DNA of 64,000 bases from an uncultured Pelagibacteraceae bacterium (GTDB lineage: Bacteria; Pseudomonadota; Alphaproteobacteria; Pelagibacterales; Pelagibacteraceae), in the NCBI GenBank assembly GCA_902518165.1, contig CABYFB010000005.1:1-64000 (forward strand), read 5' to 3'. Under the pieces are notes generated by a model. It was not told the origin of the DNA, searched no databases, and worked only from the letters and a program-made list of their open reading frames with translations. Positions 10,515-27,035 of this stretch are shown here, one piece after another. Both the position numbers and the translations under genes were made by a program. Each line of letters begins with the position of its first letter. Position 1 is the first letter of the stretch.

Positions 10515-10529
10515 AATTTTGATTAAATT

Positions 10530-11603
10530 TTAGACTGAACTAAGATTATCTAAAATTCTTTTTGAGCACTGTTCTGTATTACTAGACCCTTGAAGATCTT
10601 TTGTTCGACTGTTTTTATCTTTAAGAGTTAATTCAATTGATTTTACTATTCTATCAGAAGCTTCTTTTTCACCCAAGTAATCTAGCATCATTGCAGCTGA
10701 CCAAATCTGTCCCACTGGATTGGCTATCCCTTGGCCCGCAATATCTGGTGCGGATCCATGTACAGGTTCAAATAATGATGGGTATTTATTTGTTGGATTA
10801 ATATTTCCAGATGGTGCAATTCCAATAGTTCCAGTACAAGCTGGCCCTAGATCTGATAAAATATCTCCAAAAAGGTTTGATGCTACTATCACATCAAAAC
10901 GTTCAGGACTTAAAACAAATCTAGCAGCTAATATATCAATGTGATACTGATCAGTTTCCACATCAGAATAGTTCTTTTTATTCTCATTAAATCTTTCATC
11001 CCAATAAGGCATTGTAATTGATATTCCATTTGATTTTGTTGCACTTGTTAATTTTTTTCTTTTTCTTTTTTTAGCTAATTCAAAAGCAAATTGTTGAACT
11101 CTATCTATTCCATATTTTGACATTACTGTTTCTTGGATAACAACTTCTCTATCAGTTCCTTGATACATTCTTCCACCAACTGATGAATATTCTCCTTCAG
11201 TATTTTCTCTAACAATTATCATGTCAATATCGCCTGGCTTTTTATTAGCTAATGGAGCATTTACACCTTCAAAAAGTTTTACAGGTCTTAAGTTAATAAA
11301 TTGATCAAATTCTCTTCTAAATTTTAACAATGATCCCCAAAGTGTTATGTGGTCAGGGTATTTATCTGGCATACCAACTGCACCAAAGAAAATTGCATCA
11401 TGTTTAGTTAGCTTTTCCTTCCAGTCATCTGGCATCATTTTTCCATGTTTTTCATAATAATCACATGATGCAAAATCATAATCTTCAATATTTAATTTAA
11501 ATTGATGTTGTTGAGAAATTTCTTTTAATATTTTTTGCGCTTCAGGTACTACTTCTTTACCAATACCGTCACCAGAAATTGACGCTATAGAATACTCTTT
11601 CAT
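10530..11603 (-). CDS. Tartrate/D-malate dehydrogenase-like beta-decarboxylating dehydrogenase
   Basis: A 357-residue member of the isocitrate/isopropylmalate dehydrogenase family, closest by eye to the tartrate dehydrogenase/decarboxylase (TtuC/DmlA) branch. The N-terminus SISGDGIGKEVVPEA is the family signature; IIVRENTEGEYSSVGG and the metal site NLFGDILSDLGP follow, and the FINLRPVKL segment favours tartrate/malate over leuB-type substrates. It would oxidatively decarboxylate a 2-hydroxy acid using NAD+ and Mg2+/Mn2+. It abuts guaC (stop at 11604) and precedes the DMT transporter. A role as leuB is less likely because no leucine genes are adjacent. Subfamily moderately sure. Confidence 0.8.
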   Translation of the reverse strand: MKEYSIASISGDGIGKEVVPEAQKILKEISQQHQFKLNIEDYDFASCDYYEKHGKMMPDDWKEKLTKHDAIFFGAVGMPDKYPDHITLWGSLLKFRREFDQFINLRPVKLFEGVNAPLANKKPGDIDMIIVRENTEGEYSSVGGRMYQGTDREVVIQETVMSKYGIDRVQQFAFELAKKRKRKKLTSATKSNGISITMPYWDERFNENKKNYSDVETDQYHIDILAARFVLSPERFDVIVASNLFGDILSDLGPACTGTIGIAPSGNINPTNKYPSLFEPVHGSAPDIAGQGIANPVGQIWSAAMMLDYLGEKEASDRIVKSIELTLKDKNSRTKDLQGSSNTEQCSKRILDNLSSV

Positions 11604-12656
11604 TTATTTTACAAATGTATCGTTAAATTGCTTTGTAACTCTTACAAAAGTCGTACATTTACTTAATTGTTTTAATGAGGGTGCGCCAACATACGTGCAA
11701 CTACTTCTAACACCACCTAAAATATTTAAAATGGTGTCATTAATTTTACCACGGTACTTAACCCTTACTGTTCTACCTTCACTGCTTCTATAATCAGATA
11801 AACCACCATAATGTTTTTTATTAGCAGTTTCAGAACTTGATCCATAAAATTCAACATATTTAGAACCATTAGATTTTACTAATTTCCCTTTACCTTCATC
11901 GTGACCTGCAAACATTCCCCCAAGCATAACAAAATCAGCTCCTCCACCAAATGCTTTAGCAACGTCACCTGGACATGTGCATCCACCATCTGCAATTATA
12001 TGTGCACCTAATCCATGAGCTGCATCTGCGCATTCTATTACTGCACTTAACTGAGGATAGCCAACTCCAGTTTGTATACGTGTCGTACAAACACTACCTG
12101 GTCCAATTCCAACTTTGACAATATCAGCACCTGATAAAATTAATTCTTGAGTCATATCAGCAGTAACAACGTTTCCTGCAATTATTGTTTTTGTTGGATA
12201 TTTATCTCTTACAGATTTTAAAAATTTACTAAAATGCTCTGAATAACCATTTGCTACATCAATACAAATGAATTTAATGAAACTAAATTCTTTTAAAACT
12301 TTATCTAAATTTTGAAAATCCTCTTTTTTTGTTCCAATACTTAAAGCTACATTTGGATATATTGATTTAATTTTTTTAAATTGTTTTATTTTTTTTACAT
12401 CATGCTGTTTTGTTAAGCATGTAATCATTCCGTATTCAGATAATTTTTCGGCAACACCAAGCACGCCCACACCATCCATATTAGCTGCCATTATAGGAAT
12501 TCCAGACCATTCATTTTTACTGTATTTAAAACGATAAGTTCTTTTTAAATTAACATCTTTTCTACTTTTAAGAGTGCTTCTTTTAGGTCTAAAAAGTACG
12601 TCGGAATAATCTAGTTTTAGCTCTTCTTCAATTCTCACAAAAATGAAGGTATACAT
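11604..12656 (-). CDS. guaC: GMP reductase
   Basis: Reduces GMP to IMP with NADPH, releasing ammonia; purine salvage, cytosolic. The 350-residue protein has the IMPDH/GMPR barrel with the catalytic cysteine in GPGSVCTTR and the GuaC-specific block [20 protein letters not shown]; there are no CBS domains. The conserved family N-terminus [20 protein letters not shown] begins at residue 8, directly after a GTG codon (residue 7, position 12638). That GTG start would give 344 residues, close to the enterobacterial enzyme (347), so the ATG at 12656 may be six codons too early. It is divergent from the dehalogenase operon across 104 bp. Confidence 0.9.
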
Positions 12657-12760
12657 TCAATGAATGATAATTCAATTTAATAATTGACCTTATTAACGTT
12701 GTATTTGAACAATTTTAAAATTATTGATTAAATTATTAATATATAAATTAGAATAAATAA

Positions 12761-13636
12761 ATGTTTGAAGGTTTTAAAAGTAAATACGTCAAAGTTAAAA
12801 AGGGGAAGGTCTTTTGTAAAATTAAAGGAGATGGAACACCTTTATTATTACTTCATGGTTACCCTCAAACGCATTTAATGTGGCACAAGACAGCTCCTGA
12901 GTTATCAAAAAATTTTACTGTAGTTGCAGCAGACCTAAGAGGTTATGGAGACAGTTTAGCTCCACCATCTGATAATAAACATTTTAATTATTCTAAAAGA
13001 GAAATGGCGAATGACATGAAACAAATGATGGTAAAATTAGGATATCCTAAATTTTTTGTTGCAGGCCATGACAGAGGGGGAAGAGTTGCTCATAGATTGG
13101 CAAGAGATCACAGAAAAAACGTGCTTGCTCTTAGTGTTTTAGATATTTGTCCAACTTTAGATATGTACGAACTAACAACTAGAGATTTTGCAAAAGCTTA
13201 CTTTCATTGGTTTTTCTTAATTCAACCAAAATGGTTACCAGAAAGAATGATAATGAGTGATCCAAGGAAATGGATGAAGAATTGCTTGGACAAATGGTCT
13301 GGCAATCATAAATTTGGAAAAGTTGAAGAGGGTTACTTAAAGTGCTTTAAGCAACCAAAGAGAATTCATGGATCATGTGAGGATTATAGAGCATCTGCTA
13401 CTATTGATCTTGATCATGACAGAAACGATCGAAAGAAAAAATTAAATATTCCTGTTCAAGTTTTATGGGGAAAAAGTGGAGTTATAGGTAAACAATTTAA
13501 ACCAATCAAAATTTGGCAAAATTATTCAAATAAAAAAGTTGTTGGAGTTGCTGTTAAATCTGGACATTTTATACCAGAGCAAAATCCCAAAGAAACAATT
13601 AAACAATTAAAAAGTTTCTTTTTAAAAAATGTTTAA
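12761..13636 (+). CDS. Fluoroacetate/haloacetate dehalogenase-like alpha/beta hydrolase
   Basis: A 291-residue alpha/beta hydrolase with a strikingly complete fluoroacetate dehalogenase motif set. HGYPQTHLMW (32-41) forms the oxyanion region, GHDRGGRV (102-109) carries the aspartate nucleophile Asp104 plus carboxylate-binding Arg105 and Arg108, and His149-Trp150 match the halide-pocket HW pair. A Tyr in DYRAS and the catalytic His in SGHFIPEQNP complete the set. The known reaction is hydrolysis of C-F or C-Cl bonds in haloacetates to glycolate; the natural marine substrate is open. It starts a three-gene run with a dioxygenase (8 bp overlap) and an AEC transporter. Epoxide hydrolase is an alternative, but the nucleophile block favours dehalogenase. 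Confidence 0.85.
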   Translation: MFEGFKSKYVKVKKGKVFCKIKGDGTPLLLLHGYPQTHLMWHKTAPELSKNFTVVAADLRGYGDSLAPPSDNKHFNYSKREMANDMKQMMVKLGYPKFFVAGHDRGGRVAHRLARDHRKNVLALSVLDICPTLDMYELTTRDFAKAYFHWFFLIQPKWLPERMIMSDPRKWMKNCLDKWSGNHKFGKVEEGYLKCFKQPKRIHGSCEDYRASATIDLDHDRNDRKKKLNIPVQVLWGKSGVIGKQFKPIKIWQNYSNKKVVGVAVKSGHFIPEQNPKETIKQLKSFFLKNV

Positions 13637-14417
13637 AATTATTCCTAATAAAAAAAACATAGGTGCAGAATTAATCTGTGATTTGAATAAAATTAATAAT
13701 TCTAAATTAAAAAAAATAAAATCTGCCTTATCGAAATATGGGATGATTTACTTTAGAAATCAAAAATTAAATTCTGATAATTACGTAAAATTTGCAAAAA
13801 AATTTGGGAAACTAGCAAACTACCCAAGACTTAAAGGATTGAATAAAAAATATCCTCAAATAACTGTTGTTCAGAGAAAATCTACTGACAAAGGCCCTAG
13901 TTTTGGCGAACAATTTCACACAGACTCAATTTATACAAAAAAGCCGCCTAGATTTACAATGTTGTTATCTAAATTAGTTCCAAAAAAAGGTCAGGCAAAC
14001 ACAGATTTTTGCTCTCAATATTTAGCTTATGAAAAACTACCTGCTAACTTTAAAAGAAAGTTTAAAAACGAAAAATGTGTATTTTCATCAGAAGGACCTA
14101 TTTCTGTAACAAGATTGGAAAGAGAGAAAGAAAAGGGGAAAAAAGCTAAAGAGCTTATTTCAAAACATAATTTGATAAGAAAAATAAATAGTAAATACAC
14201 TTTATATTGTAGTCCAGGACACTTTATTCGGTTTAATAACAGTAAAATTGATAAAAAATTAAAAACTTATTTATTCAAACACCAAGTAAAAAAAAGTTTT
14301 CAATATACTTTGGAGTGGGAAAAGAACCAATTAGCTATTTGGGATAATAGATCTATGCTTCATCAAGCAACAGCTTTTAAAGGTGATAGAATTATGCATA
14401 GAATTACTGTCCAATAA
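13629..14417 (+). CDS. TauD/TfdA-family 2-oxoglutarate-dependent dioxygenase
   Basis: A 262-residue non-haem Fe(II)/2-oxoglutarate dioxygenase. The metal triad is visible: His97-x-Asp99 in FHTDSIY, and the distal His245 in SMLHQATAF; Arg258 near the C-terminus (HRITVQ) is placed to bind 2-oxoglutarate. Family members hydroxylate taurine, alkylsulfates, phenoxyacetates or similar small acids. It overlaps the dehalogenase by 8 bp and its stop touches the transporter ATG by one base (TAATG), so the three genes look cotranscribed and may process one imported organic acid. The substrate cannot be read from the sequence. Confidence 0.87.
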   Translation: MFKIIPNKKNIGAELICDLNKINNSKLKKIKSALSKYGMIYFRNQKLNSDNYVKFAKKFGKLANYPRLKGLNKKYPQITVVQRKSTDKGPSFGEQFHTDSIYTKKPPRFTMLLSKLVPKKGQANTDFCSQYLAYEKLPANFKRKFKNEKCVFSSEGPISVTRLEREKEKGKKAKELISKHNLIRKINSKYTLYCSPGHFIRFNNSKIDKKLKTYLFKHQVKKSFQYTLEWEKNQLAIWDNRSMLHQATAFKGDRIMHRITVQ

Positions 14418-15340
14418 TGTTTCAGGTATTTTTAGGCTTAACTCCATTTATAGGCATTACTCTTATTGGTTATCTTTTAGGATACATTAAAATATTTGAT
14501 TTACAAAAAGCTAGAATATTTAACTTATTCTCATTTTATATCGCAGTCCCTGCTTTAATTATAAAACTAGTTGCCCAAAGTGATGTTGGTGAAATAGATG
14601 TGTCTCAAATTTCATCATATTTTTTAATGCAATTAACAAGCGGAATATTTGCTTTCTTATTAACCAAAAATACTTTCAAAAGATCAATGCAAGAATCTAT
14701 TATTTGGGCTCTAACAGTTGCTTTATCAAATCACGTAATATTAGTTTTACCTATTGCTGAAATATTCTTTCAAGGAAGTACGATAACTCAAATATCAGGT
14801 ATTATTTTAATGGATAGTGTAGTTTTAATATCCATAGTTAGTTTCTTTTTAGAACTTACTGTAAAAAAAAAAATTAAATTATTTCAGTTTTTAAGAAATT
14901 TAATTTTAAACCCTATGATATTAGCAATTTTAATTGGATTGATAATAAGAATTTCAAAGATCAATATTGATGAAACTCCATTTGAGTATATTCTTCAAAG
15001 ACTGGCAGCATGTGTGATGCCAGTTGGATTATTTGCAATTGGTATTATTCTATCTTTTTACTCAAAAAAACTTTTCAATAAATTAACAATCACTATCTCA
15101 ATATTAAAACTTATTATATCACCACTGATTTTGCTAATTTTAGGGTACACATTCTTTAACTTATCAAATCCAATTAATTTTGCTGGAGCCTTGTTAGTTA
15201 GTGTCGGACCATGTGGGGCCACCTCAATTGTTATGTGCTCAGCATACAATGTAAGCCCAGAGAATATAATTAAGGCAATATTTATTTCAACATTTGCTTC
15301 AATATTTACTTTTTTATTTACTATAAATTTATTAAATTAA
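14417..15340 (+). CDS. AEC-family transporter (auxin efflux carrier type)
   Basis: A 307-residue inner-membrane protein with about ten hydrophobic segments in two halves, typical of the AEC/malonate-transporter family. The N-terminus LTPFIGITLIGYLLGY and the second-half glycine-rich GALLVSVGPCGATSIVM are family-like. Bacterial members move malate, malonate or related organic acids. It is coupled by one base to the dioxygenase gene and is the last recognisable gene of that operon; the Lys-rich micro-ORF begins 4 bp later. Substrate unknown. Confidence 0.83.
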   Translation: MFQVFLGLTPFIGITLIGYLLGYIKIFDLQKARIFNLFSFYIAVPALIIKLVAQSDVGEIDVSQISSYFLMQLTSGIFAFLLTKNTFKRSMQESIIWALTVALSNHVILVLPIAEIFFQGSTITQISGIILMDSVVLISIVSFFLELTVKKKIKLFQFLRNLILNPMILAILIGLIIRISKINIDETPFEYILQRLAACVMPVGLFAIGIILSFYSKKLFNKLTITISILKLIISPLILLILGYTFFNLSNPINFAGALLVSVGPCGATSIVMCSAYNVSPENIIKAIFISTFASIFTFLFTINLLN

Positions 15341-15344
15341 AATA

Positions 15345-15458
15345 ATGTCAAAAAGGTATAGCGGTAAATCATTTAAAGACTCTAGTGTAATGAAAAAAGC
15401 CAAACTTTCTCTTAAGGAAAAAAGAAAAATTAAAAAAGATAAGAAAAAGAGTAAGTGA
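15345..15458 (+). CDS. Possible 37-residue Lys-rich protein
   Basis: A 37-codon frame starts 4 bp after the AEC transporter stop and ends at 15458, 51 bp before a tRNA. The product is very basic: 15 Lys and 2 Arg, no cysteines and no membrane segment, with an N-terminal MSKRYSGKSFKDSS portion that is not just an A-tract translation. I do not recognise it. There is no Shine-Dalgarno sequence. It could be a small RNA- or ribosome-associated protein, or a chance frame in A-rich DNA. Confidence 0.3.
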   Translation: MSKRYSGKSFKDSSVMKKAKLSLKEKRKIKKDKKKSK

Positions 15459-15509
15459 AATCTTGTTTGCATCAAAAAATAAAAGTAGTATAAACCAACA
15501 ATTATTTAC

Positions 15510-15586
15510 GGCGGGGTAGCTCAGTTGGTTAGAGCGCGGGACTCATAAGCCCGAGGTCAGTGGTTCGATCCCACTTCCCGCTACCA
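15510..15586 (+). tRNA. tRNA with CAU anticodon, probably elongator tRNA-Met
   Basis: A 77-nt cloverleaf with encoded CCA (15584-15586). The D arm is GCTC-loop-GAGC, the anticodon loop CTCATAA gives CAU, and the T arm is AGTGG-TTCGATC-CCACT. The acceptor GGCGGGG pairs with TCCCGCT, giving G-U wobbles at 1:72 and 7:66. The anticodon stem CGGGA/GCCCG leaves A31 opposite G39. The initiator-type C1:A72 mismatch and GGG/CCC stem features are absent, so elongator Met is preferred; tRNA-Ile2 (lysidine-modified CAU) remains possible. It abuts the apt stop codon on the other strand. Confidence 0.88.
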
Positions 15587-16114
15587 TCAATGACCAGGAA
15601 AATCTAAAAGATTTTCAACTTTATATCCTTTTTTTAAAAGATTATCAGTACCACCAAGATCAAATAGATTAATTACAAAAATAAACCCTGCAACTTTGCT
15701 TTTTGATATTTCAATTAATTTAGCAGCTGCCTCCGCGGTACCTCCTGTAGCAATTAAATCATCAATAATTAATACTTTATCATTTTCATTGAAAGAATCT
15801 TTGTGAACTTCAATGGTTGCAGTTCCATACTCAAGCTCAAAATCAACAGAGTGTACTTCTGCAGGTAATTTATTTTTTTTTCTGAGCATTATGAATGGTT
15901 TATCTAAAGTATATGAAATAGCGGAAGCAAATACAAAGCCTCTAGATTCTACAGCGGCTATTTTATCAAAATTAAATTTTTTTGATCTTTCAACAATTTG
16001 GTTGATACATTCTTTAAATGCCTTTTCATTTTTTATGAGAGTTGTGATGTCTCTAAATAGAATGCCCTTTTTAGGATAGTCTTGAATTGATCTAATATGT
16101 TCTTTTAAATCCAT
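15587..16114 (-). CDS. apt: Adenine phosphoribosyltransferase
   Basis: Joins adenine to PRPP to make AMP (cytosolic salvage). The 175-residue protein has normal length and the family's N-terminal IQDYPKKGILFRDITTL, the AAVESRGFVFA block, and the PRPP-binding VLIIDDLIATGGTA. It is divergent from mtnP with only 28 bp between the two starts, and adenine is the base released by MtnP, so the arrangement fits joint expression. Its stop codon begins directly after the tRNA 3' end, a convergent, gapless junction. Confidence 0.95.
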   Translation of the reverse strand: MDLKEHIRSIQDYPKKGILFRDITTLIKNEKAFKECINQIVERSKKFNFDKIAAVESRGFVFASAISYTLDKPFIMLRKKNKLPAEVHSVDFELEYGTATIEVHKDSFNENDKVLIIDDLIATGGTAEAAAKLIEISKSKVAGFIFVINLFDLGGTDNLLKKGYKVENLLDFPGH

Positions 16115-16142
16115 AAAACTTAATTATAATCTAAAATGTATT

Positions 16143-17015
16143 ATGGCAAATAATAAATTAGCAATTATCGGTGGAAGCGGCTTATATGATGTTGAAGAGT
16201 TTAAAGATAGAGAAACTCTTGATTTAAATACTCCGTGGGGGAAACCCTCTGATTTAATTTTAAAGGCAAAATATAATAATAAAGAAATTTATTTTCTTCC
16301 AAGACACGGAAAAGGTCATTTTATTTCTCCATCAAAAATAAATTTTAGAGCAAATATTGATGCACTTAAACAACTAGGAATCACAGACATAATTTCTGTT
16401 TCAGCCGTTGGATCTTTAAAAGAAGATTTGTCCCCAGGTAAATTTGTTATCGTTGATCAATTCATTGATAGAACTTTTGCAAGAAATAAAACCTTTTTTG
16501 ATGATGAAATTGTTGCGCATGTATCAATGGCACACCCAACCTCAAATGGGCTGATGAATGCTTGCGAAGATTCTATTAAAAAAGAAAATATACCTTATCA
16601 AAGAGGTGGAACTTATGTTGTAATGGAAGGTCCACAATTTTCTACATTAGCAGAGTCAAACCTATATAGATCATGGAAAGCAGATGTTATTGGAATGACA
16701 AATATGCCAGAAGCTAAACTAGCAAGAGAAGCTGAAATCAGATATGCTTCAGTATCGATGGTAACAGATTATGATTGTTGGCATCCAGATCATGAAAATG
16801 TTGACGTTCAACAAGTAATAAAAGTACTTTTAGATAATGCAGCAAAAGCGAAAAATATGATTAAAAATTTGATAGATAACTTCGAAATTCACATAGATCC
16901 TAATGACCCAACTAATAATTGCTTAGATGTAGCAATAATTACTGCTCCAGAAAAAAGAACGCAAAAAACTAAAGATAAATTAAATACAATCGCAGGAAGA
17001 GTTCTTAATAAATGA
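16143..17015 (+). CDS. mtnP: S-methyl-5'-thioadenosine phosphorylase
   Basis: Phosphorolysis of methylthioadenosine to adenine and 5-methylthioribose-1-phosphate. The 290-residue protein shows IIGGSGLYD (8-16), the phosphate/ribose block FLPRHGKGH, VSAVGSL, and the purine/methylthioribose pocket YVVMEGPQFSTLAE. The TNMPEAKLAREAEI segment and the following VTDYDCWH favour MTA over inosine or guanosine phosphorylases. It overlaps mtnA by 4 bp (ATGA) and is divergent from apt. MTA is the by-product of the SpeE reaction encoded at 20.2 kb. Function firm. Confidence 0.95.
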   Translation: MANNKLAIIGGSGLYDVEEFKDRETLDLNTPWGKPSDLILKAKYNNKEIYFLPRHGKGHFISPSKINFRANIDALKQLGITDIISVSAVGSLKEDLSPGKFVIVDQFIDRTFARNKTFFDDEIVAHVSMAHPTSNGLMNACEDSIKKENIPYQRGGTYVVMEGPQFSTLAESNLYRSWKADVIGMTNMPEAKLAREAEIRYASVSMVTDYDCWHPDHENVDVQQVIKVLLDNAAKAKNMIKNLIDNFEIHIDPNDPTNNCLDVAIITAPEKRTQKTKDKLNTIAGRVLNK

Positions 17016-18088
17016 AAATTAATGGTGTTGAATATAAAACAATTTGGTTTGATGAAGAAAAACAGGTTGTAAAAATAATAGATCAAACAAAGCTTCCACA
17101 TAAATTTATAATAAAAGAATTAAGTTCAGTTAAAGACGCGATAAATGCTATAAAAACAATGGAAGTGAGAGGCGCTCCATTAATCGGAGGTACAGCTGCA
17201 TTTGGATTGGTTTTAGCCATAAAAGAAAATAACAGTTTAGATTTTATAAAAAAAAGTTCGGAAGAATTAGTTGCTTCTAGGCCAACGGCCATAAATCTTC
17301 AGTGGGCAGTTCATAGAATGAATAACAAATTGTCATTTGTTGAACCTGGAGATTTATTTAATGTTGCACTCAACGAAGCTAAAGAAATTTGCAAAGAAGA
17401 CGAGAGATTTTGTGAAAGTATTGGTAAAAATGGATTAAATATTATTGAGGATATATATAATAAAAAGAAAGATACTGTAAATATTCTAACGCATTGTAAT
17501 GCTGGTTGGTTAGCTACAATAGATTGGGGAACGGCAACTTCACCTATTTATCATGCACATAAAAAAGGAATACCAATTCATGTTTGGGTAGATGAAACTA
17601 GACCAAGAAATCAAGGAGCAAACCTTACATCATATGAACTTAATGAAGAAGAAATTCCAAATACAATTATAGCAGATAATACAGGTGGAATATTAATGCA
17701 AAGAGGACAGGTTGATATGTGTATTGTTGGAACAGATAGGACATTATCAAACGGAGATGTATGTAATAAAATTGGAACATATTTAAAAGCTCTTGCAGCT
17801 CATGATAATAAGGTACCTTTTTATGTTGCTTTACCAAGTTCAACGATAGATTGGAATTTAAAAAACCCTAAAGATATTCCAATAGAAGAAAGAGATCCAA
17901 AAGAACTTTCTCATGTGGATGGAATTAACAAAGATAATAAAGTTGATAAAGTTTTAATATATCCTGAAAAAAGCAAATCATTAAATTTAGCATTTGATGT
18001 AACACCTGCTAAATATGTTACTGCATTAATAACAGAAAAGGGAGTTTGTGATGCTTCATCTGAGGGCTTAAAAAAATTATTTAATTAA
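17012..18088 (+). CDS. mtnA: Methylthioribose-1-phosphate isomerase
   Basis: Isomerises 5-methylthioribose-1-phosphate to 5-methylthioribulose-1-phosphate. The 358-residue protein is of the eIF2B-like family with EVRGAPLIGG (51-60), the catalytic cysteine Cys162 in LTHCNAGWLATIDWGTA, and catalytic Asp242 in IVGTDRTLSNGDVCNKIGTY. It is translationally coupled to mtnP. The later enzymes of the universal methionine salvage route (MtnB, MtnC, MtnD, or MtnW/X) are not in this window; instead the convergent neighbour, touching at 18088/18089, is a class II aldolase fused to a dehydrogenase. Confidence 0.95.
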   Translation: MKINGVEYKTIWFDEEKQVVKIIDQTKLPHKFIIKELSSVKDAINAIKTMEVRGAPLIGGTAAFGLVLAIKENNSLDFIKKSSEELVASRPTAINLQWAVHRMNNKLSFVEPGDLFNVALNEAKEICKEDERFCESIGKNGLNIIEDIYNKKKDTVNILTHCNAGWLATIDWGTATSPIYHAHKKGIPIHVWVDETRPRNQGANLTSYELNEEEIPNTIIADNTGGILMQRGQVDMCIVGTDRTLSNGDVCNKIGTYLKALAAHDNKVPFYVALPSSTIDWNLKNPKDIPIEERDPKELSHVDGINKDNKVDKVLIYPEKSKSLNLAFDVTPAKYVTALITEKGVCDASSEGLKKLFN

Positions 18089-20122
18089 TTATCTTAAAGA
18101 AGCTGCAATATTTCCACCATCTACAGTTAGCACTGCTCCAGTTGATTTTTTTGATATCGCAAGATGATAAAAAGCTTTAGCGACATCATCTGCTTTAACT
18201 TCGCTTAAGAGTAAATTACCACTCATATATTGATCCGTGGTTACTTCTCTTGCCTTTGCTCTTTGTTTAATCATTTTATCATTTAATAAACCACTTCTAA
18301 TTCTATCAGCATTAACACCATTTGATCTAATACCAAGGTGTCCATAATCAACTGCATATTGTTTACATAAATTTAAAAGTGCAGACTTAGGCAATCCATA
18401 TGGTCCAAAATTTTTACCAGGATTAACTGACTGTTTAGATATATTAAATAACAAACATCCATTTATATTTTGTTTTTTCATAATTTTTACAGCCTCTGAA
18501 GCACAATTTTGGTGTGAGAAAAAATTATCTTCGAAACTTTTTCGAAGTACTTCATCATTAACTTCTGCAATTGATCCGCCCATAGCAGTACCAGCATTAG
18601 ATATTAAAATATCTACACCTCCATATATTTCCAAAATTTTACTAAATGCTTTTTTTACACTTTGTTTGTTGGTTACATCACAGTGAATACAAAGATCACT
18701 TATTTTTGTCTGTAAATCATTTATCTTACTTTTATTAATATCAAGCAAAACAACTTCTGCTCCGTATTTTTTAAATAATTTATAGGTTGCTTTACCAATT
18801 TCACCAGTGCTACCAGTGATAACAACAACGTTGCCTTGCAATTCTTTTTTTGCTTTATTTAACTTTGCTTGTTCTAAGGACCAATACTCAACATCAAATA
18901 AGTCTTTTTTCGATAAAAATTTATATCTGGATGTTTCTTCAACACTTGAAATTACATTGGCATTAGTTTGAGTTAAATCACCTGCAATTCTTGCAGCTTT
19001 TAAGGTATCACCTACAGTAAATAAACCAAAATTCTGAATAAGAATTACTCTAGGAGATGTATCAAGCATTACTTTTTTTTCTTTAGTTTTTTTCTTATTA
19101 GATTCAAAATATTTTTTATATTTTTGGCGGTATTCTTTGAATTTTTTTTCAGCTAAATTTTTAAATTCATTCAAAGTACAATTTGGTTTTGGTGACATTA
19201 TCAAAGGAAATGGTTTAACTCTTATAACATGATCAGGAGTAGCTGTTCCTTCATTTGAGTATCTATTTATATCTTTACCATTAATAAAATAATCTAACTT
19301 ACTATTTTTTTTAAAATTTAAGATAAATTTATTATCATTTTTCTCAGATAAAAGACCTCTCAATATAGGAGCTACATCCGCAGTTGAGAAATTAAATTTA
19401 GTTTTTTTAATTTGTTTTATTTTTTTCTTTTTTAGTTTGGTTAAAGTTTTTTCAGCATTAGATATATACTTTATCATTAAAGTGTAAGCATCTTTTGCAT
19501 TATCAGCAAATGTGAAAATGCCATGGTTTAATAAAATCAAACAATTTATATTTGGATTTTTAGAATAAACTTCATTTATTTTTTGTGCTAATTTAAATCC
19601 TGGCATTACATATGGGACTATTGCAGTTTTTTTACCAAATATTTTTTTTGATAATATTTCTCCATTTGGTCTATTAGTGATTTTCATAATTGCATCAGAA
19701 TGAGTGTGATCAACAAATTTAAACGGTAAAAATGCATGTAAAAAAGTTTCAACTGATGGATTGGGCGATTTTGTATCTATCAAATTTTTTTTTTGAAAAG
19801 CAACCATGTCATCATCAGAGAGCGTTTTCTTTTTTTTCATAGTAAGCAAAGGATTTAATTTAACAGCTGGCAAACCCTCTGGTTCAATTTCAGCCATATC
19901 CCATCCACTGCCTTTTACGCAAAGAACATCATAATATTTACCATCTATATCTTTGATTTTGGTCTTGACTGAAGTATTGCCACCACCATGCAAGACCAAT
20001 TCTGGATTTCTTCCTAGAAGCCTAGTTGTATAAACTCTTAAAGCCATATCTTCAGAATGACCTAATTTCTTATACTTTTTAATATATTTTTTAGCTTCGT
20101 TTTCTGACCAATTGTTTTTCAA
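18089..20122 (-). CDS. Bifunctional class II aldolase / short-chain dehydrogenase
   Basis: A 677-residue fusion. The N-terminal half is a zinc class II (fuculose/rhamnulose-type) aldolase: HGGGNTS at 45-51, catalytic-position Glu125, zinc ligands His139, His141 and His200. Its C-terminal part (from about 430) is a short-chain dehydrogenase with TGSTGEIG (436-443), Ser562 and the catalytic YGLPK (Tyr575, Lys579). Proteins of this architecture are usually annotated as rhamnulose-1-phosphate aldolase/lactaldehyde dehydrogenase. No rhamnose genes are nearby; the flanks are mtnA and speDE. I infer that it may split methylthioribulose-1-phosphate (or 5-deoxyribulose-1-phosphate) into DHAP and an aldehyde handled by the fused dehydrogenase. 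Confidence 0.88.
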   Translation of the reverse strand: MKNNWSENEAKKYIKKYKKLGHSEDMALRVYTTRLLGRNPELVLHGGGNTSVKTKIKDIDGKYYDVLCVKGSGWDMAEIEPEGLPAVKLNPLLTMKKKKTLSDDDMVAFQKKNLIDTKSPNPSVETFLHAFLPFKFVDHTHSDAIMKITNRPNGEILSKKIFGKKTAIVPYVMPGFKLAQKINEVYSKNPNINCLILLNHGIFTFADNAKDAYTLMIKYISNAEKTLTKLKKKKIKQIKKTKFNFSTADVAPILRGLLSEKNDNKFILNFKKNSKLDYFINGKDINRYSNEGTATPDHVIRVKPFPLIMSPKPNCTLNEFKNLAEKKFKEYRQKYKKYFESNKKKTKEKKVMLDTSPRVILIQNFGLFTVGDTLKAARIAGDLTQTNANVISSVEETSRYKFLSKKDLFDVEYWSLEQAKLNKAKKELQGNVVVITGSTGEIGKATYKLFKKYGAEVVLLDINKSKINDLQTKISDLCIHCDVTNKQSVKKAFSKILEIYGGVDILISNAGTAMGGSIAEVNDEVLRKSFEDNFFSHQNCASEAVKIMKKQNINGCLLFNISKQSVNPGKNFGPYGLPKSALLNLCKQYAVDYGHLGIRSNGVNADRIRSGLLNDKMIKQRAKAREVTTDQYMSGNLLLSEVKADDVAKAFYHLAISKKSTGAVLTVDGGNIAASLR

Positions 20123-20211
20123 TGTTTATCCTCGATAAATTATTATAATAGTTTTTTGTTTGAAAGAAGTAAAAAATTTCGTTAGTTAAAAAAGATATAT
20201 ATTAGATTCTT

Positions 20212-21252
20212 ATGGAAAAAGTTGGGGAACATATAACACTGGATATAGTTGGAACTAAAAAGGAATATACTCCCGAATTTTATGAAAAGTTAGTTTATAA
20301 AATTGCTAAAGCAGCAAAAGTAACAGTTTTAAAAATTTCTAAATATAAATTCGAGCCACAAGGATTTACATTGGTTGCTTTGCTTGCTGAAAGTCACATT
20401 AGTTTTCATACTTTTCCAGAAAAAGAAATTGTAAGCTTTGATTTTTTTACATGTGGAAAAGTATCACCAAAAGTTTCTCTAGATATAATAAAAGACGAGA
20501 TGGAACATACAAATATCATAATTAAAGAATTTAATAGAGATACTATTGATCTTTATCATGACAATTATAGTTCTCCAGGTTTAAAAAAATCATATGTTGT
20601 TAATAGAGTTTTAGAAAATTTCAAATCTAAAGTAGGTCAATATATTGAAATACTTGATTTAGAACAATTTGGAAAAGCTTTATTTATTGATAATGAAATA
20701 CAAGTAGCTGAAAGTGACGAACATTTGTATAGCTCAAACTTTGTAAATTCAGGTCTTAATTTAAATTCAAACAAGGAAAAAGCTGCAATTATTGGTGGAG
20801 GTGACGGTGGTGTTGCAAGAGAATGCATTTCACAAAATTTTGGCTTTATAGATTGGTATGAATTAGATCCCGAGGTTGTTGATGTATGTGATAAACATCT
20901 GAGCAAAATTGGTGAGAAGGCTACAGAAAAGAATTCAGTTAAATGTGTTTGGGGGGATGCTTTTGAAAGTATTAAATCTGTCAAAGACAATACTTATGAT
21001 CAAATATTTGTTGATCTAAATGATGATCAATTTTGTATAGATTTGGCTGCAAAAAATATGTCATCCTTAGAAAGAATTTTAAAACCTAAAGGTGTAATTA
21101 CCGCTCAAGTAGGAAGCCAAGACAAAAAACCAAAACAAGTTGAAAATTGGTTAAATGTTTTTAATAAAAATTTTGGAAATACAAAACTTTCAAGAGTTTA
21201 TATACCTAGTTTTGATTGTTCTTGGAATTTTTCCTCGTCAATAAATCATTAA
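20212..21252 (+). CDS. Fused S-adenosylmethionine decarboxylase / spermidine synthase
   Basis: A 346-residue SpeD-SpeE fusion. Residues 1-120 are a bacterial type 1b AdoMet decarboxylase: the self-processing site LLAESHISFHTFPE gives pyruvoyl Ser61 after cleavage behind Glu60, with His66 and Cys81 (FFTCG) in the active site. Residues 125-340 are a spermidine synthase-type aminopropyltransferase with AAIIGGGDGGVAREC (191-205), DWYELDPEVVDVC and the DQIFVDLND acidic block. It would make decarboxylated AdoMet and transfer its aminopropyl group to a diamine, releasing methylthioadenosine for the adjacent mtnP/mtnA. Processing would leave the decarboxylase alpha chain attached to SpeE. The amine acceptor is not known. 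Confidence 0.92.
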   Translation: MEKVGEHITLDIVGTKKEYTPEFYEKLVYKIAKAAKVTVLKISKYKFEPQGFTLVALLAESHISFHTFPEKEIVSFDFFTCGKVSPKVSLDIIKDEMEHTNIIIKEFNRDTIDLYHDNYSSPGLKKSYVVNRVLENFKSKVGQYIEILDLEQFGKALFIDNEIQVAESDEHLYSSNFVNSGLNLNSNKEKAAIIGGGDGGVARECISQNFGFIDWYELDPEVVDVCDKHLSKIGEKATEKNSVKCVWGDAFESIKSVKDNTYDQIFVDLNDDQFCIDLAAKNMSSLERILKPKGVITAQVGSQDKKPKQVENWLNVFNKNFGNTKLSRVYIPSFDCSWNFSSSINH

Positions 21253-21310
21253 TTTTTCTTTTTAAAACAATAATTTTATGAAATAATCTTCAAAATTTTT
21301 GGAGGAAAAA

Positions 21311-22138
21311 ATGAAAAAATTAAAAGTATTAGGACTTGGTATTTTGATATCGTCATTTCTAACAATTTCTTCAATTGCAGATCAAATTAAAATAGGAACC
21401 GAAGGCGCATATCCGCCTTGGAATTCTAAAGATTCAGCTGGAAATTTGATTGGCTTTGAAGTCGAATTAGCAAATGAATTATGTAAAATAATGAAACATG
21501 ATTGCACAATTGTAGAGCAAGACTGGGATGGAATGATACCAGCTTTAGTCTCAAGAAAATTTGATGCCATCATGGCTGGAATGTCAATAACTGGTGAGAG
21601 AATGAAAACAATAAACTTTTCTCAAGGTTATGCTGATGAAGTTGCATCATTAGCTGTTATGAAAGGATCAAAAAACGAAGGTCTTAAAACTATGTCAGCT
21701 ATAAATTTATCTGATGTAAGTGCTGATGAACAAGCAACACTAGATGTTTTGACTAAAGCATTTAAAGGTAAAACTATAGGTGTACAAACAGCAACAATTC
21801 ACCAGAACTTTCTAGAGTCTGGTTTAATGGGTAATGTAAAAATTAGAACTTACAAAACTCAAGATGAAGTAAACTTAGATTTATCTGCTGGTAGAATAGA
21901 TGCGGCACTAGCTGCAGCAGTTGCTTTTACAGATTATGCAGAGAAATCTGGTAAAGCAGTTGTATTAACTGGACCAACATTTGCAGGTGGAGATTTTGGT
22001 AATGGTGTTGGCGTAGGTATTAGAAAAGGTGACTCTAAACTTTTAAATGATTTTAATGCAGCAATTGATAAAGCTAGAGATGATGGCATTATTAGTAAGC
22101 TTGCTATAAAACATTTTGGTTTTGACGCTTCTATGTAA
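21311..22138 (+). CDS. Basic-amino-acid-type ABC transporter substrate-binding protein
   Basis: Periplasmic binding protein of the lysine/arginine/ornithine/octopine class, 275 residues. The start is the ATG at 21311 behind GGAGG (21301-21305); a TTG at 21299 would extend over that site. The signal peptide runs MKKLKVLGLGILIS... with cleavage near SIA-DQ. Mature-protein hallmarks are GTEGAYPPWNSKD, GFEVELANELC, the DWDGMIPALVSRKFDAIM block and ITGERMKTINFS, all close to LAO-binding-protein motifs. Two permeases follow after a hairpin. Given speDE just upstream, arginine, ornithine or a polyamine precursor is an appealing ligand, but that is inference. Confidence 0.9.
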   Translation: MKKLKVLGLGILISSFLTISSIADQIKIGTEGAYPPWNSKDSAGNLIGFEVELANELCKIMKHDCTIVEQDWDGMIPALVSRKFDAIMAGMSITGERMKTINFSQGYADEVASLAVMKGSKNEGLKTMSAINLSDVSADEQATLDVLTKAFKGKTIGVQTATIHQNFLESGLMGNVKIRTYKTQDEVNLDLSAGRIDAALAAAVAFTDYAEKSGKAVVLTGPTFAGGDFGNGVGVGIRKGDSKLLNDFNAAIDKARDDGIISKLAIKHFGFDASM

Positions 22139-22150
22139 TAAATTATTTAT

Positions 22151-22172
22151 GGGTGGCTATAATTAGCCACCT
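22151..22172 (+). repeat. Hairpin between binding protein and permease genes
   Basis: GGGTGGCTA (22151-22159) pairs with TAGCCACCT (22164-22172): a 9-bp stem, including one terminal wobble, around a 4-nt loop. No T-run follows. It sits 13 bp after the binding-protein stop and 6 bp before the permease ATG, so it could protect the upstream mRNA from 3' exonucleases, lower permease translation, or both. The permease has no visible Shine-Dalgarno sequence apart from this stem. Confidence 0.6.
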
Positions 22173-22177
22173 ATATT

Positions 22178-22870
22178 ATGGAACTTCTATATTTTGGTGA
22201 TAAAGGTTGGGGAGACGAGTTATTCTTTGCAACCTTAATGACAATTGCGGTCTCAATAACCGCAATGATAATTGGCTTTATATTTGCTGCTTTATTTACT
22301 CCATTAAAATTATCTAATAATAAATTTCTTAATTCTATTGGTAATGCATACACCACTGTTATTAGAGGTGTACCAGAGCTTCTAGTAATTTATTTATTTT
22401 TCTTTGGTGGAAGTGGAGCAATTATGTTTGTTGCTTCAATATTTGGTTATAATGATTACATCGAAATTAATGCTTTTTTAACTGGTTCATTTTCAATAGG
22501 GATAATATCGGGAGCATACTCAACCGAAGTATTTAGAGGAGCCCTACAATCAATCGATAAAGGTCAGTTTGAGGCTGCAAAGGTTTTAGGTTTTAATAAA
22601 TATATTTACTTCTTTAAAATTATTTTGCCTCAAATGCTAAGACTTGCAATTCCAAACTTAAGCAATGTTTGGCAAATTACATTAAAAGATACTTCTCTTA
22701 TATCTGTAACGGGTTTAGTTGAAATAATGAGACAATCCTATATTGCAGCTGGTTCAACTAGAGATCCATTATTTTTTTACTCATTTGCAGCAGTTCTATA
22801 CTTAATGCTTACATTTTTAAGTATGCAATTATTAAATAGATTAGAAACAAAATATAGCAAAGGTTATTAA
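22178..22870 (+). CDS. Polar amino acid ABC transporter permease (HisQ type)
   Basis: A 230-residue inner-membrane permease with about five membrane segments. The HisMQ family hallmark lies at residues 50-75 (AYTTVIRGVPELLVIYLFFF), and the EAA loop is GQFEAAKVLGFNKYIYFFKI. It pairs with the next permease, overlapping it by one base (TAATG), to form the heterodimer expected for HisQM/ArtQM/OccQM importers. The start ATG at 22178 comes straight after a hairpin. No ATPase gene is in the operon. Confidence 0.92.
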   Translation: MELLYFGDKGWGDELFFATLMTIAVSITAMIIGFIFAALFTPLKLSNNKFLNSIGNAYTTVIRGVPELLVIYLFFFGGSGAIMFVASIFGYNDYIEINAFLTGSFSIGIISGAYSTEVFRGALQSIDKGQFEAAKVLGFNKYIYFFKIILPQMLRLAIPNLSNVWQITLKDTSLISVTGLVEIMRQSYIAAGSTRDPLFFYSFAAVLYLMLTFLSMQLLNRLETKYSKGY

Positions 22871-23547
22871 TGGATATTGAATTAATGATAAATAGTTTTC
22901 CTAAGTTGTTAAACGCAACTTTGATTACTCTTAAACTATTATCTGTATCTCTAATTCTTGGTCTTTTAATTGGATTAGGTTTTGCAATCTTGAGAATGAA
23001 TAATAATAAGTTGATTAATAAATTTGCTTACGGGTATTCATATATTTTTAGAGGAACACCTTTATTGGTTCAAATCTTCATAATATATTTTGGATTAGGT
23101 CAAATTGAATATTTAAGAACAACCTTTTTATGGGTAGTTTTAAAAGAACCATACTGGTGTGCGATAATAGCATTTTCACTAAATACAGGGGCTTATACTT
23201 CTGAAATATTGAGATCAGCTTTTCAAACTATAAAACCGGGATATTTAGAAGCTGGAAAAAGTTTAGGTATACCTTCAAAAATAATTTTTACAAAAATACA
23301 AATTCCTATTGCAATTAAACAGTCTTTACCAGCCTATGGGAATGAAATTATTTTGATGCTTAAAGGAACATCTCTAGCAAGTACAGTCACACTAATGGAT
23401 TTAACAGGTGTTGCAAAATATATAATTTCAACGACATTTAAACCAGTAGAGGTGTTTATTGTTGCAGGAGGTATTTACTTGTTTATGACTTTTATAATTC
23501 ATAATGTAATTAAATATTTAGAAAAAAAATATGGGTTTCAAACATGA
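22870..23547 (+). CDS. Polar amino acid ABC transporter permease (HisM type)
   Basis: A 225-residue inner-membrane permease, partner of the upstream HisQ-type protein. It shows the family segment YIFRGTPLLVQIFIIYFGL, the AFSLNTGAYTSEILRSA block and the EAA loop GYLEAGKSLGIPSKIIFTKI. Its last 4 bp overlap the start of the nitrilase-family gene (ATGA), tying import to a C-N hydrolase. In most genomes the ATPase subunit follows here; it is missing, so the system must borrow an ATPase encoded elsewhere. Confidence 0.92.
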   Translation: MDIELMINSFPKLLNATLITLKLLSVSLILGLLIGLGFAILRMNNNKLINKFAYGYSYIFRGTPLLVQIFIIYFGLGQIEYLRTTFLWVVLKEPYWCAIIAFSLNTGAYTSEILRSAFQTIKPGYLEAGKSLGIPSKIIFTKIQIPIAIKQSLPAYGNEIILMLKGTSLASTVTLMDLTGVAKYIISTTFKPVEVFIVAGGIYLFMTFIIHNVIKYLEKKYGFQT

Positions 23548-24329
23548 AAATAGCATGCATACAATTATCTAGTGGAGAAAATTATAAAGATAATTATAAA
23601 GATATTCTTAAATATGTAAATCAAGCTATAAAAAATAAATCAGATTTAATCATTACACCCGAAACCTCCTCTTTGATGTCTAGCAGTAGAGAAACATTAT
23701 TTAAATTTTCATTTGAAATGAATAAAGATCCAATTTTAAAGAAAATTAAAGAAGTTTCAAAAAAATATAAGAAATGGATTTTACTTGGTTCAATTTGCGT
23801 TAAAGTTAAAAATAAACTCAGAAATAGATCGATACTGGTTGGACCAAATGGAAAAATTGTCAAATATTATGACAAAATTAATATGTTTGATGTTAAAATT
23901 CCGAATAAAGAACAGCATAAAGAAAGCAAAACTTTTAAAGCAGGAAATAAATTAGTAACTGCTAATTTACCTTGGGGTAAAATAGGTTTTACAATATGTT
24001 TTGATCTGAGATTTCCAGAACTTTACAGAAATTTATCAAAAAAAAATTTGAGTTTTATTGCTGTTCCATCAGCTTTCACAAAATTTACTGGACAAAAACA
24101 TTGGTTAACACTTTTAAGAGCAAGAGCGATTGAAAATTTTTGTTATATATTTGCACCAGCTCAAACTGGAAAAAATACCCCTAAAAGAGAAACATTTGGT
24201 CATACGGCTATTATTTCACCAGATGGAAAAATATTAGCATTAAAAAAATTAGGTAAGGGAGTGATATATTCAAAAATTAATCCTAAGCTCTCCATGGATT
24301 TAAGAAAAATAATACCAACTCTAATTTAA
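23544..24329 (+). CDS. Carbon-nitrogen hydrolase (nitrilase superfamily, Nit1/Nit2-like)
   Basis: A 261-residue cytosolic amidase with a complete nitrilase-fold triad: Glu40 in IITPETSS, Lys111 in YYDKINMFDV, and Cys152 in GFTICFDLRFPELYR. That last block and the DKINMFDVKIP stretch resemble Nit1/Nit2 (deaminated glutathione amidase, omega-amidase) more than nitrile hydrolases or N-carbamoylputrescine amidases. It overlaps the HisM-type permease by 4 bp, so it probably acts on the imported nitrogen compound or on an amide made from it. Convergent with the ATP-grasp gene, the two share 4 bp at their stops. Confidence 0.87.
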   Translation: MKIACIQLSSGENYKDNYKDILKYVNQAIKNKSDLIITPETSSLMSSSRETLFKFSFEMNKDPILKKIKEVSKKYKKWILLGSICVKVKNKLRNRSILVGPNGKIVKYYDKINMFDVKIPNKEQHKESKTFKAGNKLVTANLPWGKIGFTICFDLRFPELYRNLSKKNLSFIAVPSAFTKFTGQKHWLTLLRARAIENFCYIFAPAQTGKNTPKRETFGHTAIISPDGKILALKKLGKGVIYSKINPKLSMDLRKIIPTLI

Positions 24330-25774
24330 TTTCTACTATCCACAATCAATGTATCTTTAGATCCACCACCTTGAGAACTGTTAACTATAGTACTACCTTT
24401 TTTTAGAGCAACTCTAGTTAATCCACCCGTTGTTACATAAGTTGATTTACCTGTTAAAATAAAAGGTCTTAAATCTAAATGTCTAGGCTCGATGTTATCA
24501 GGTGTAATCGTAGGAACAGTAGAAAGAATTTCCAATGGTTGTGCAATGTAATTTCTGGGATTTTTTTTTATATTTTTTATCATTTCTTCTTTTTCTGCTT
24601 TAGAAGCTTTAGGACCAATCATAATTCCATAGCCACCCGATGCATTTGAAGGTTTGACTACATATTTGGAGATATTATCTATAACGTGTTCTCTATTTTT
24701 TTTATCTCCACAAAGAAGAGTTTCAACTTGATCAATAATTGGTTGTTCTCCTAAATAGTAAATGATCATTTTATTAACATAAGAATAAACTGCTTTATCA
24801 TCTGCAACTCCTGTTCCTAAAGCATTAATAATTCCAACATTTCCTTTTCTCCAACATTTGAAAACACCAGGCACACCTAATAAGGATCCCTTGAAAAAAA
24901 CTTTTGGATCCATAAAATTATCATCTATTCGTCTATAAATACAATCTACCTTCAAAGGGCCTTTAACTGTTTTCATGTAAACATGATCGTTTTCAACAAA
25001 TAAATCTTTACCCTCCACCAATGCTATTCCCATTTGTTCCGCTAAAAAAGAGTGTTCAAAATAAGCTGAATTATAAATACCAGGTGTTAATAAAACCATG
25101 TGTGGGTTATTAGTTTTTTTTGGAATACACTCTGTCATACAATTATATAATTTATTTGCATATTGATGAACTGAAGAAACTTTATATCTTGTAAATAGTT
25201 CTGGAAAAATATCTCTCATTACCATTCTATTTTCCAGCATATATGAAACTCCAGACGGTACTCTTAAGTTATCTTCAAGAACTAAAAAATCCCCATCAAT
25301 GTTTTTTATAAGATCAATCCCAGATATATTTGACCATGCTTTGTGTTTTGGTGAGAAACCTTCACATTCTTTTAAATATAGAGGAGAATTAAAAATTAAT
25401 TCTTTAGGTATTACTTTGTCTTTAAATATTTTTTTTGCATTGTAGACATCATCGATAAATAAATTTAGTGCCTTAACTCTTTGTGCAAGTCCCTTTGCAA
25501 CCTTTAACCATTGACTTTTTGGTATAATTCTAGGAATGATGTCTAAAGGCCATTTTTTCTCTTCAGCTCTATTGTTTGCAGCATAAACTCTAAAATTTAT
25601 TCCTCTAGCGCTTATTGTACTTTGACAATTTTTTTCTATTTCTTGTAATTTTTTTTTTCCATATTTTTCAAGTATGCCTGCAATGATCTTAGCATGACTT
25701 CTCAACTTCTTCTCTTTACTGATATATCCATCAAAAGTTGATTTAGAATCGTAATTTTTCCAAAAATCAGACAT
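24326..25774 (-). CDS. Circularly permuted ATP-grasp family protein
   Basis: A 482-residue member of the circularly permuted ATP-grasp (type 2) family. Recognisable stretches are NGINFR-like ARGINFRVYAANN, the LEDNLRVPSGVSYMLENR block, CIYRRIDDNFMDP, GTGVADDKAVYSYVNKMI, VVKPSNASGGYGIMIGP, and the C-terminal RPFILTG...GGLTRVA and SSQGGGSKDTLIV segments. In other bacteria this protein travels with an alpha-E protein, a transglutaminase-like protein and a proteasome-type protease, a proposed peptide-ligation and processing system. Here only the protease is present, divergent across 114 bp. The substrate of the ligase is unknown. Confidence 0.88.
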   Translation of the reverse strand: MSDFWKNYDSKSTFDGYISKEKKLRSHAKIIAGILEKYGKKKLQEIEKNCQSTISARGINFRVYAANNRAEEKKWPLDIIPRIIPKSQWLKVAKGLAQRVKALNLFIDDVYNAKKIFKDKVIPKELIFNSPLYLKECEGFSPKHKAWSNISGIDLIKNIDGDFLVLEDNLRVPSGVSYMLENRMVMRDIFPELFTRYKVSSVHQYANKLYNCMTECIPKKTNNPHMVLLTPGIYNSAYFEHSFLAEQMGIALVEGKDLFVENDHVYMKTVKGPLKVDCIYRRIDDNFMDPKVFFKGSLLGVPGVFKCWRKGNVGIINALGTGVADDKAVYSYVNKMIIYYLGEQPIIDQVETLLCGDKKNREHVIDNISKYVVKPSNASGGYGIMIGPKASKAEKEEMIKNIKKNPRNYIAQPLEILSTVPTITPDNIEPRHLDLRPFILTGKSTYVTTGGLTRVALKKGSTIVNSSQGGGSKDTLIVDSRN

Positions 25775-25888
25775 ATTAATTTAATTTTTTTACATAAGAG
25801 TTAAATAAGCAAATGATTAAATTCGATATCTGATATGAAATAAATGGGTTTTATTGTAATCACATATAATTTAAACATTTAACTTATT

Positions 25889-26611: not shown

Positions 26612-26613
26612 AA

Positions 26614-27003
26614 TTAATATTTGGTGTATTCTTTAATTTCTTTAATTTTAGAACCAGTTTTATTATTTATTTCTAATTTTAATTTTGCCCTTTCATCATT
26701 TAGGAAGTGAACATCTCTTGATAATTTTATAAATTTTTCACCAAAATCAGAATTTTTTTCACATAATCTTTTATTATCTTCTATTACCCAAAGCTTTGAA
26801 TTAATTTCTTTTAGTGAATTATATAAACTTTCAATTTCACTGTAATTTTTAATATTTGTATTTAATTGATCTTGTAAAATTTTATATTCATCATTTATGA
26901 AATTTAGTTTTTCAGGATCTTTAATTTTTTTAGATTTAATTTCTAAAATTGAAATTTTATCCAGTAATTCTCCAACTGATACTTCTACTAAAATTTTATT
27001 CAT
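26614..27003 (-). CDS. DUF6165-like protein
   Basis: A 129-residue, highly charged protein, predicted mostly helical/coiled coil. The opening MNKILVEVSVGELLDKISILEIKSKKI is characteristic of the uncharacterised DUF6165 family as I remember it; NSKLWVIEDNKRLCEKN and the VHFLNDERAKLKLEIN stretch also fit. No signal peptide or membrane segment. It lies between the protease (2 bp away, convergent) and a divergent family 9 glycosyltransferase (32 bp). A role in surface polysaccharide assembly is conceivable from the neighbour only. Function unknown. Confidence 0.75.
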   Translation of the reverse strand: MNKILVEVSVGELLDKISILEIKSKKIKDPEKLNFINDEYKILQDQLNTNIKNYSEIESLYNSLKEINSKLWVIEDNKRLCEKNSDFGEKFIKLSRDVHFLNDERAKLKLEINNKTGSKIKEIKEYTKY

Positions 27004-27035
27004 ATAAATCGATATTATGTTAAGTTGTTAAAAAT

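Follow-up and report, generated by a model that had tools for sequence, protein, structure and literature searches.

A class II aldolase-dehydrogenase fusion beside mtnA in Pelagibacteraceae as a probable aldolase of a dihydroxyacetone phosphate shunt

The subject of this study is a class II aldolase fused to a short-chain dehydrogenase (SDR), encoded on a 64-kb stretch of contig CABYFB010000005.1 from an uncultured Pelagibacteraceae bacterium, the whole of which is referred to as the window. The gene is situated between mtnA, encoding S-methyl-5-thioribose-1-phosphate isomerase, and a gene encoding a SpeD-SpeE fusion. We consider it very probable that the protein serves as the methylthioribulose-1-phosphate and 5-deoxyribulose-1-phosphate aldolase of a dihydroxyacetone phosphate (DHAP) shunt and that its NAD-type dehydrogenase half takes over the aldehyde, both the substrate and the handling of the aldehyde being predicted from sequence. 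The known DHAP shunt of Rhodospirillum rubrum, Rhodopseudomonas palustris and some Escherichia coli comprises MtnP or MtnN plus MtnK, MtnA and the aldolase Ald2. The island in the window resembles it in the clustering of MtnP and MtnA, in the class II aldolase beside mtnA and in the absence of MtnD and MtnC matches over cut-off, but differs in that the aldolase forms the N-terminal half of an SDR fusion instead of a separate FucA-like protein of the Ald2 type.

The aldolase slot between mtnA and speDE

The assignment is carried by the occupancy of a single position within 147 genomes of the order (SAR11), families f1 and f2 included, which were searched for the fusion, mtnA and Aldolase_II proteins. 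The fusion exceeds its cut-off in 16 of these genomes and mtnA is present in 79, two of the genes being partial; all 16 fusion genomes possess mtnA. Among the 79 mtnA genomes, 16 hold the fusion only, 61 hold only a stand-alone aldolase which lies within 15 kb of mtnA and is co-directional with it, none holds both and two hold neither, the aldolase slot of the latter two falling past the contig end; exactly one aldolase type is found in 77 of the 79. The distance to mtnA is at most 2.6 kb for 60 of the 61 stand-alone aldolases (9 kb in G074) and for 14 of the 16 fusions (9 kb in G088, while in G121 the fusion is located on another contig). Positions of Aldolase_II proteins in the order are those among the matches listed; matches outside these score below about 68 bits, as compared to 154 to 181 bits for the slot-type aldolase. 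In G036 and G114, which stand outside the 79 genomes, the mtnA search gave no match and a slot-type aldolase lies at the end of a contig; in G114 an mtnA fragment stops at the contig end. In relatives lacking the fusion an aldolase of about 210 to 230 residues fills the gap between mtnA and speDE, oriented as mtnA, and within the examined stretches of 80 fusion-bearing SAR11 loci no stand-alone aldolase is present. Family f2 displays mtnA in 3 of 53 genomes, many of them incomplete, and these are the same three which carry the fusion; the genes lie side by side in one direction in the order mtnP-mtnA-fusion, with mtnA partial in G100 and mtnP seen in two. Class II aldolase matches other than the fusion, most of them 249 to 264 residues long, occur in 46 of the 53 f2 genomes.

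The stand-alone aldolase is presumably Ald2, a FucA-like enzyme, since the two examples compared resemble FucA, both in models and in structures, more than MtnB. These examples reach 191 to 198 bits with FucA-type models, below the cut-offs of 264 bits, and match FucA structures with an E value of 1e-46 and 6btd, which we take to be DrdA, with 7e-39. An MtnB-like identity was rejected, as TIGR03328 yields 58 to 67 bits for the two examples against a cut-off of 137.

A tree of mtnA with 77 rows, which is a gene tree and not a species tree and omits the partial genes of G070 and G100, requires 10 changes between fusion and stand-alone aldolase, at least six of which are forced by well-supported branches. 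The labels are partly clustered on this tree, since shuffling leads to a mean of 14 changes and only one or two of 500 shufflings gave a number as low. The slot has undergone repeated swaps rather than a single old event.

Between mtnA and the aldolase slot, SAR11 loci (L046, L080, L093 and L098 among them) feature a hotspot of cargo genes, namely a TrpB-like pyridoxal phosphate enzyme in 11 of the 80 loci, DUF1015 in 10, asparaginase II in four and SerC-SerA once. The TrpB-like gene is also found together with a stand-alone aldolase, in L201 (G131). The window contains no TrpB-like, DUF1015, asparaginase II, SerC or SerA gene.

The presence of such cargo around the slot in relatives, along with a few homologues in polyol- or sugar-type clusters (G176, S. 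meliloti pSymB), would agree with the fusion being a mere passenger of an insertion hotspot that cleaves some other, for example polyol-derived, 1-phosphorylated ketose. We judge this improbable: mutual exclusion with the stand-alone aldolase, which holds in all 77 genomes that can be resolved and through at least six swaps, is not what one would expect of a passenger gene, the TrpB-like cargo accompanies either aldolase, and the link to mtnA, mtnP or mtnK recurs far outside SAR11.

As regards universal methionine salvage, MtnD (ARD) exceeds its cut-off in none of the 147 order genomes, a single match below cut-off being obtained in G007 and none in the source genome. MtnC exceeds its cut-off in none of the 16 fusion genomes, MtnW and MtnX not having been searched for; weak MtnC matches (18 to 22 bits, cut-off 128) occur in seven of the 16 including the source genome. 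MtnB was not detected in the latter (1.23 Mb, 35 contigs, 93% complete) because the fusion is its sole Aldolase_II match. Fusion proteins with a class II aldolase-type part that perform steps of S-methyl-5'-thioadenosine (MTA) salvage are described in the available parts of PMC5893883 and PMC6079011, namely MtnBD of Tetrahymena and the aldolase-phosphatase DEP1 of Arabidopsis. These, however, dehydrate methylthioribulose-1-phosphate towards methionine, whereas the protein studied here would cleave a C-C bond with no recovery of methionine.

An earlier note on this DNA had suggested a DHAP-shunt role for the fusion, which gains support from its replacement of a FucA-like aldolase in the slot and its co-occurrence with mtnA. 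The salvage without MtnC and MtnD which it envisaged is in line with the results for both enzymes, and in the search of SAR11 genomes for co-occurrence, which it recommended, all 16 genomes with the fusion had mtnA. Its wording of a "one-protein DHAP shunt" was overstated, since the fusion would join the aldolase and aldehyde steps only, MtnP and MtnA remaining separate and needed proteins.

The island and the fusion protein

The island consists of five genes, whose order as read in the earlier note agrees with the reading frames and with the family matches (bit scores, cut-offs in brackets):

15587-16114, minus strand: apt, adenine phosphoribosyltransferase, 175 residues; TIGR01090 203 (186)
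16143-17015, plus strand: mtnP, S-methyl-5'-thioadenosine phosphorylase, 290 residues; TIGR01694 314 (275), PRK08931 441 (437)
17012-18088, plus strand: mtnA, S-methyl-5-thioribose-1-phosphate isomerase, 358 residues; TIGR00512 413 (279)
18089-20122, minus strand: class II aldolase-SDR fusion, 677 residues, TTG start; NF006192 904 (639)
20212-21252, plus strand: SpeD-SpeE fusion (S-adenosylmethionine decarboxylase-spermidine synthase), 346 residues; TIGR03330 92 (76), PF01564 85 (23)

The reading frames of mtnP and mtnA overlap by four bases. The SpeE part clears the Pfam cut-off only and stays under the NCBIfam cut-offs for spermidine synthase (TIGR00417 104 versus 250 bits). A tRNA gene (15510-15583, plus strand) adjoins apt, and the spacing between apt and the next conserved gene differs between relatives. 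A scan of positions 10000 to 28000 with Rfam gathering scores revealed no riboswitch, the single RNA match being this tRNA.

Among the best 80 of 336 fusion-bearing homologous loci, to which all locus figures for Pelagibacteraceae refer and whose names are all Pelagibacteraceae or Pelagibacter, SpeD-SpeE lies within 300 bases of the fusion in 78. The mtnA gene is located within 8 kb of the fusion in 70, being convergent with it in all 70, and is not in the examined stretch in the other 10. Such recurrence of the arrangement far exceeds chance. SpeD was found in 75 of the 79 mtnA genomes of the order, and SpeD-SpeE is the likely source of MTA.

This frequent company of SpeD bears on the question of whether the fusion might mainly salvage 5'-deoxyadenosine, the by-product of radical SAM enzymes, to DHAP and acetaldehyde, MTA being a secondary substrate. 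The known shunt handles both by-products according to the accessible portions of PMC10986504 and PMC12632272, and in the three f2 genomes possessing mtnA and the fusion the search for SpeD gave no match over cut-off. Family f1, on the other hand, points to MTA by the frequency of SpeD-SpeE next to the fusion and of SpeD in mtnA genomes, and we deem a main role in 5'-deoxyadenosine salvage unlikely.

Within the fusion protein three regions can be distinguished:

19466-20032, minus strand: Aldolase_II domain (PF00596), residues 31-219
18839-19417, minus strand: middle region, residues 236-428, fold without assignment, its end weakly Aldolase_II-like
18113-18832, minus strand: SDR domain (PF00106/PF13561), residues 431-670

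The end of the middle region weakly resembles Aldolase_II (PF00596, E value 0.038; hhalign probability 53%) and looks like a second, degenerate half of that domain, with another residue in place of the metal-ligand histidine. In the aldolase half His139, His141 and His200 align with the metal ligands and Glu125 with the catalytic acid, all four being conserved; these roles we assign by analogy to FucA. The SDR half features an intact and conserved Asn533-Ser562-Tyr575-Lys579 tetrad and the TGxxxxIG glycine stretch of the Rossmann fold, while Asp461, which sits after strand beta-2, suggests NAD(H) as the cofactor. NF006192 (PRK08324.1-6, "bifunctional aldolase/short-chain dehydrogenase") matches the protein over its full length; its name gives neither substrate nor pathway, whereas we propose both. 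Foldseek supports the two domain folds and nothing further (best match 3m4r, template modelling score normalised by target 0.72).

Relation to RhaEW and occurrence outside SAR11

By its usual label the fusion would be RhaEW, i.e. an L-rhamnulose-1-phosphate aldolase joined to an L-lactaldehyde dehydrogenase. RhaEW has been validated biochemically and is known from Chloroflexus aurantiacus and, as YuxG, from Bacillus subtilis, as stated in the available part of PMC3870299. Its two-domain architecture is identical and the proposed chemistry is alike, as a ketose-1-phosphate would be cleaved to DHAP and an aldehyde which the fused SDR handles. The RhaEW model TIGR02632 (RhaD_aldol-ADH) does match the fusion, yet with 444.1 bits it remains below its cut-off of 567.75. 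Neither the rhamnose isomerase model TIGR02629 nor RhaA (PF06134) matches in any of the 16 fusion SAR11 genomes, while TIGR02629 matches in all 11 control genomes, which contain a lower-scoring, RhaEW-type fusion (eight over cut-off, three below; the second copies of G339 and G431 as well as G443 were left out). Nine of the control genes are directly beside the fusion and two are about 5 kb off; a scan of 68 of the 81 open reading frames neighbouring RhaEW-type fusions produced six TIGR02629 matches.

In a tree of 11 of the 16 SAR11 fusions, 53 of 68 other fusions of the class, 11 RhaEW-type proteins and two deep second copies (12 class fusions not obtained whole and three truncated ones as well as G443 being left out), the 11 RhaEW-type rows all group together in a clade (support 100) that contains no SAR11 fusion. 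Those of SAR11 likewise make up a single clade (support 97) within the other large group, in which mtn-adjacent and non-adjacent members are mixed. This is a quick tree with long-branch and composition warnings, a reservation that counts against our interpretation. Among the MTA-type proteins (63, G176 left out), Glu125 is present in 62, with one gap, and Asn533 in all 63; the RhaEW-type proteins have Asp and Leu, respectively, at these positions in 11 of 11. Membership in RhaEW was rejected on the score, the missing isomerases, the separate clade and the two residues, and we regard a rhamnose function as highly improbable. The rejection of the rhamnose label in the earlier note is corroborated by these differences and by the slot swap.

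Two second aldolase-SDR fusions of about 650 residues, L305 (G339) and L306 (G431), lie outside the MTA-type and RhaEW clades, their branch measuring 3.25 changes per site. Both the fusion and mtnA match as several pieces in L304 (G443), for which reason this island looks decayed.

The fusion type is not peculiar to the locus studied here. In a sample of 385 genomes of the class it exceeds the cut-off in 69, and mtnA is present in 65 of these as compared to 118 of the 316 others (Fisher p 1e-19, kinship ignored). Among the matches listed, mtnA lies within 5 kb of the fusion in 37 of the 69 and mtnP alone in six more, 43 in total. On plasmids 64 fusion matches were obtained, around four of which the annotation was examined. 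Those of Mariluticola (L313), Pararhizobium (L315) and Shinella (L316) carry a sugar-type ATP-binding cassette transporter and mtnK within 4.5 kb of the fusion; mtnA adjoins mtnK in two of the three regions, the third stretch ending inside mtnK. Such clusters possibly allow methylthioribose or 5-deoxyribose to be imported and metabolised. A sugar-binding regulator gene is also found near the fusion on these three plasmids.

Several observations weigh against the proposed role. The fusion and the stand-alone aldolase exhibit no significant similarity in BLASTP (E value 0.24), hence their common function rests on position, and the stand-alone aldolase was compared with FucA and not with an Ald2 sequence. 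The two genes mtnA and fusion converge in family f1, so that they do not share an operon there. A second Aldolase_II protein of 242 to 252 residues, in no case located within 15 kb of mtnA, is encoded in eight of the 16 fusion genomes and might conceivably take over the role; proteins of this size also occur in genomes without the fusion. Within the class, neither mtnA nor mtnP lies within 5 kb of the fusion in 26 of the 69 genomes, some of these fusions being on short contigs, and four of the 69 are without detected mtnA. One of them, G176 (L291), is a single 1.4-Mb contig in which the fusion neighbours genes for a UgpC-like transporter, a glycerol-phosphate dehydrogenase-like protein and a sugar kinase, and on S. 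meliloti pSymB (L314) sugar transporter genes are near the fusion, with no mtn gene in the stretch. Because some fusions lack nearby or any detected mtn genes, other 1-phospho-ketoses may be the substrates of some members of the wider family. A Pfam tally (E value 1e-10) of 79 of 127 open reading frames neighbouring non-adjacent fusions, from 19 of the 26 regions, disclosed no family in more than two members and, in this respect, no shared pathway. MtnD co-exists with the fusion in seven of the 69 class genomes versus eight of the 316 others, and the negative association that had been expected was not found. The predicted structure of the fusion is weak (mean predicted local distance difference test score 67), for which reason an argument from the substrate pocket was dropped. 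Finally, the literature searched holds no assay of any enzyme of the MTA-type fusion.

The proposed pathway and its aldehyde step

In the pathway that we propose, SpeD-SpeE would make spermidine and release MTA, which MtnP would convert to adenine and methylthioribose-1-phosphate, the freed adenine being re-used by Apt. MtnA would isomerise the sugar phosphate to methylthioribulose-1-phosphate, the aldolase half would cleave the latter to DHAP and 2-methylthioacetaldehyde, and the fused NAD-type SDR would convert this aldehyde inside the same protein. The 5-deoxyribose-1-phosphate derived from 5'-deoxyadenosine would be handled likewise, affording DHAP and acetaldehyde. The fusion would take the place of the separate FucA-like aldolase, presumably Ald2, which in sister lineages has stayed at the position between mtnA and speDE.

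In the published shunt the aldehyde step of R. palustris, i.e. the formation of 2-methylthioethanol, is ascribed to a separate "putative alcohol dehydrogenase" in the accessible text of PMC5893883, whereas here it would be built in. The same paper reports that an R. palustris strain without ald2 and the RubisCO-like proteins grows poorly on MTA as sole sulfur source. For E. coli with the DHAP shunt the available sections of PMC10986504 name 2-methylthioethanol as the end product. The SDR of RhaEW is NAD+-dependent according to the part of PMC3870299 at hand. With respect to the direction of the reaction, we incline slightly towards an NAD+-linked oxidation to methylthioacetate by analogy to RhaEW, because of the RhaEW-like architecture and the likely NAD cofactor. 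Reduction to methylthioethanol has a nearly even chance, since Asn533 differs from RhaEW and 2-methylthioethanol is the known product of the shunt. A combined picture, in which repeated swaps in SAR11 bring in an SDR that oxidises to methylthioacetate, populations differ in their sulfur product and MTA-type PRK08324 proteins constitute an oxidative shunt across Alphaproteobacteria, is put forward tentatively, as we consider it rather doubtful in its entirety.

A study of SAR11 (PMC8437039) mentions MTA and regards SpeE as a fusion protein of several domains, its available part making no mention of breakdown by an aldolase and containing neither the word "aldolase" nor "mtnP". The literature searched, the coverage of which is incomplete, yielded no account of the fusion as part of MTA salvage, so that novelty in print is not established.

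The proposal provides a testable substrate for a widespread Alphaproteobacterial fusion which has so far been named without a pathway or by analogy to rhamnose degradation. It makes the fusion a candidate enzyme for the aldehyde step of the DHAP shunt, which is unassigned and which the fusion could supply as a non-orthologous replacement, and it presents a locus of ocean bacteria at which dissimilar enzymes have repeatedly replaced each other in the same pathway step. The swap of the aldolase could decide which organic sulfur compound SAR11 emits during spermidine synthesis; if the oxidative reading holds true, co-existing SAR11 would release methylthioacetate on the one hand and methylthioethanol on the other.

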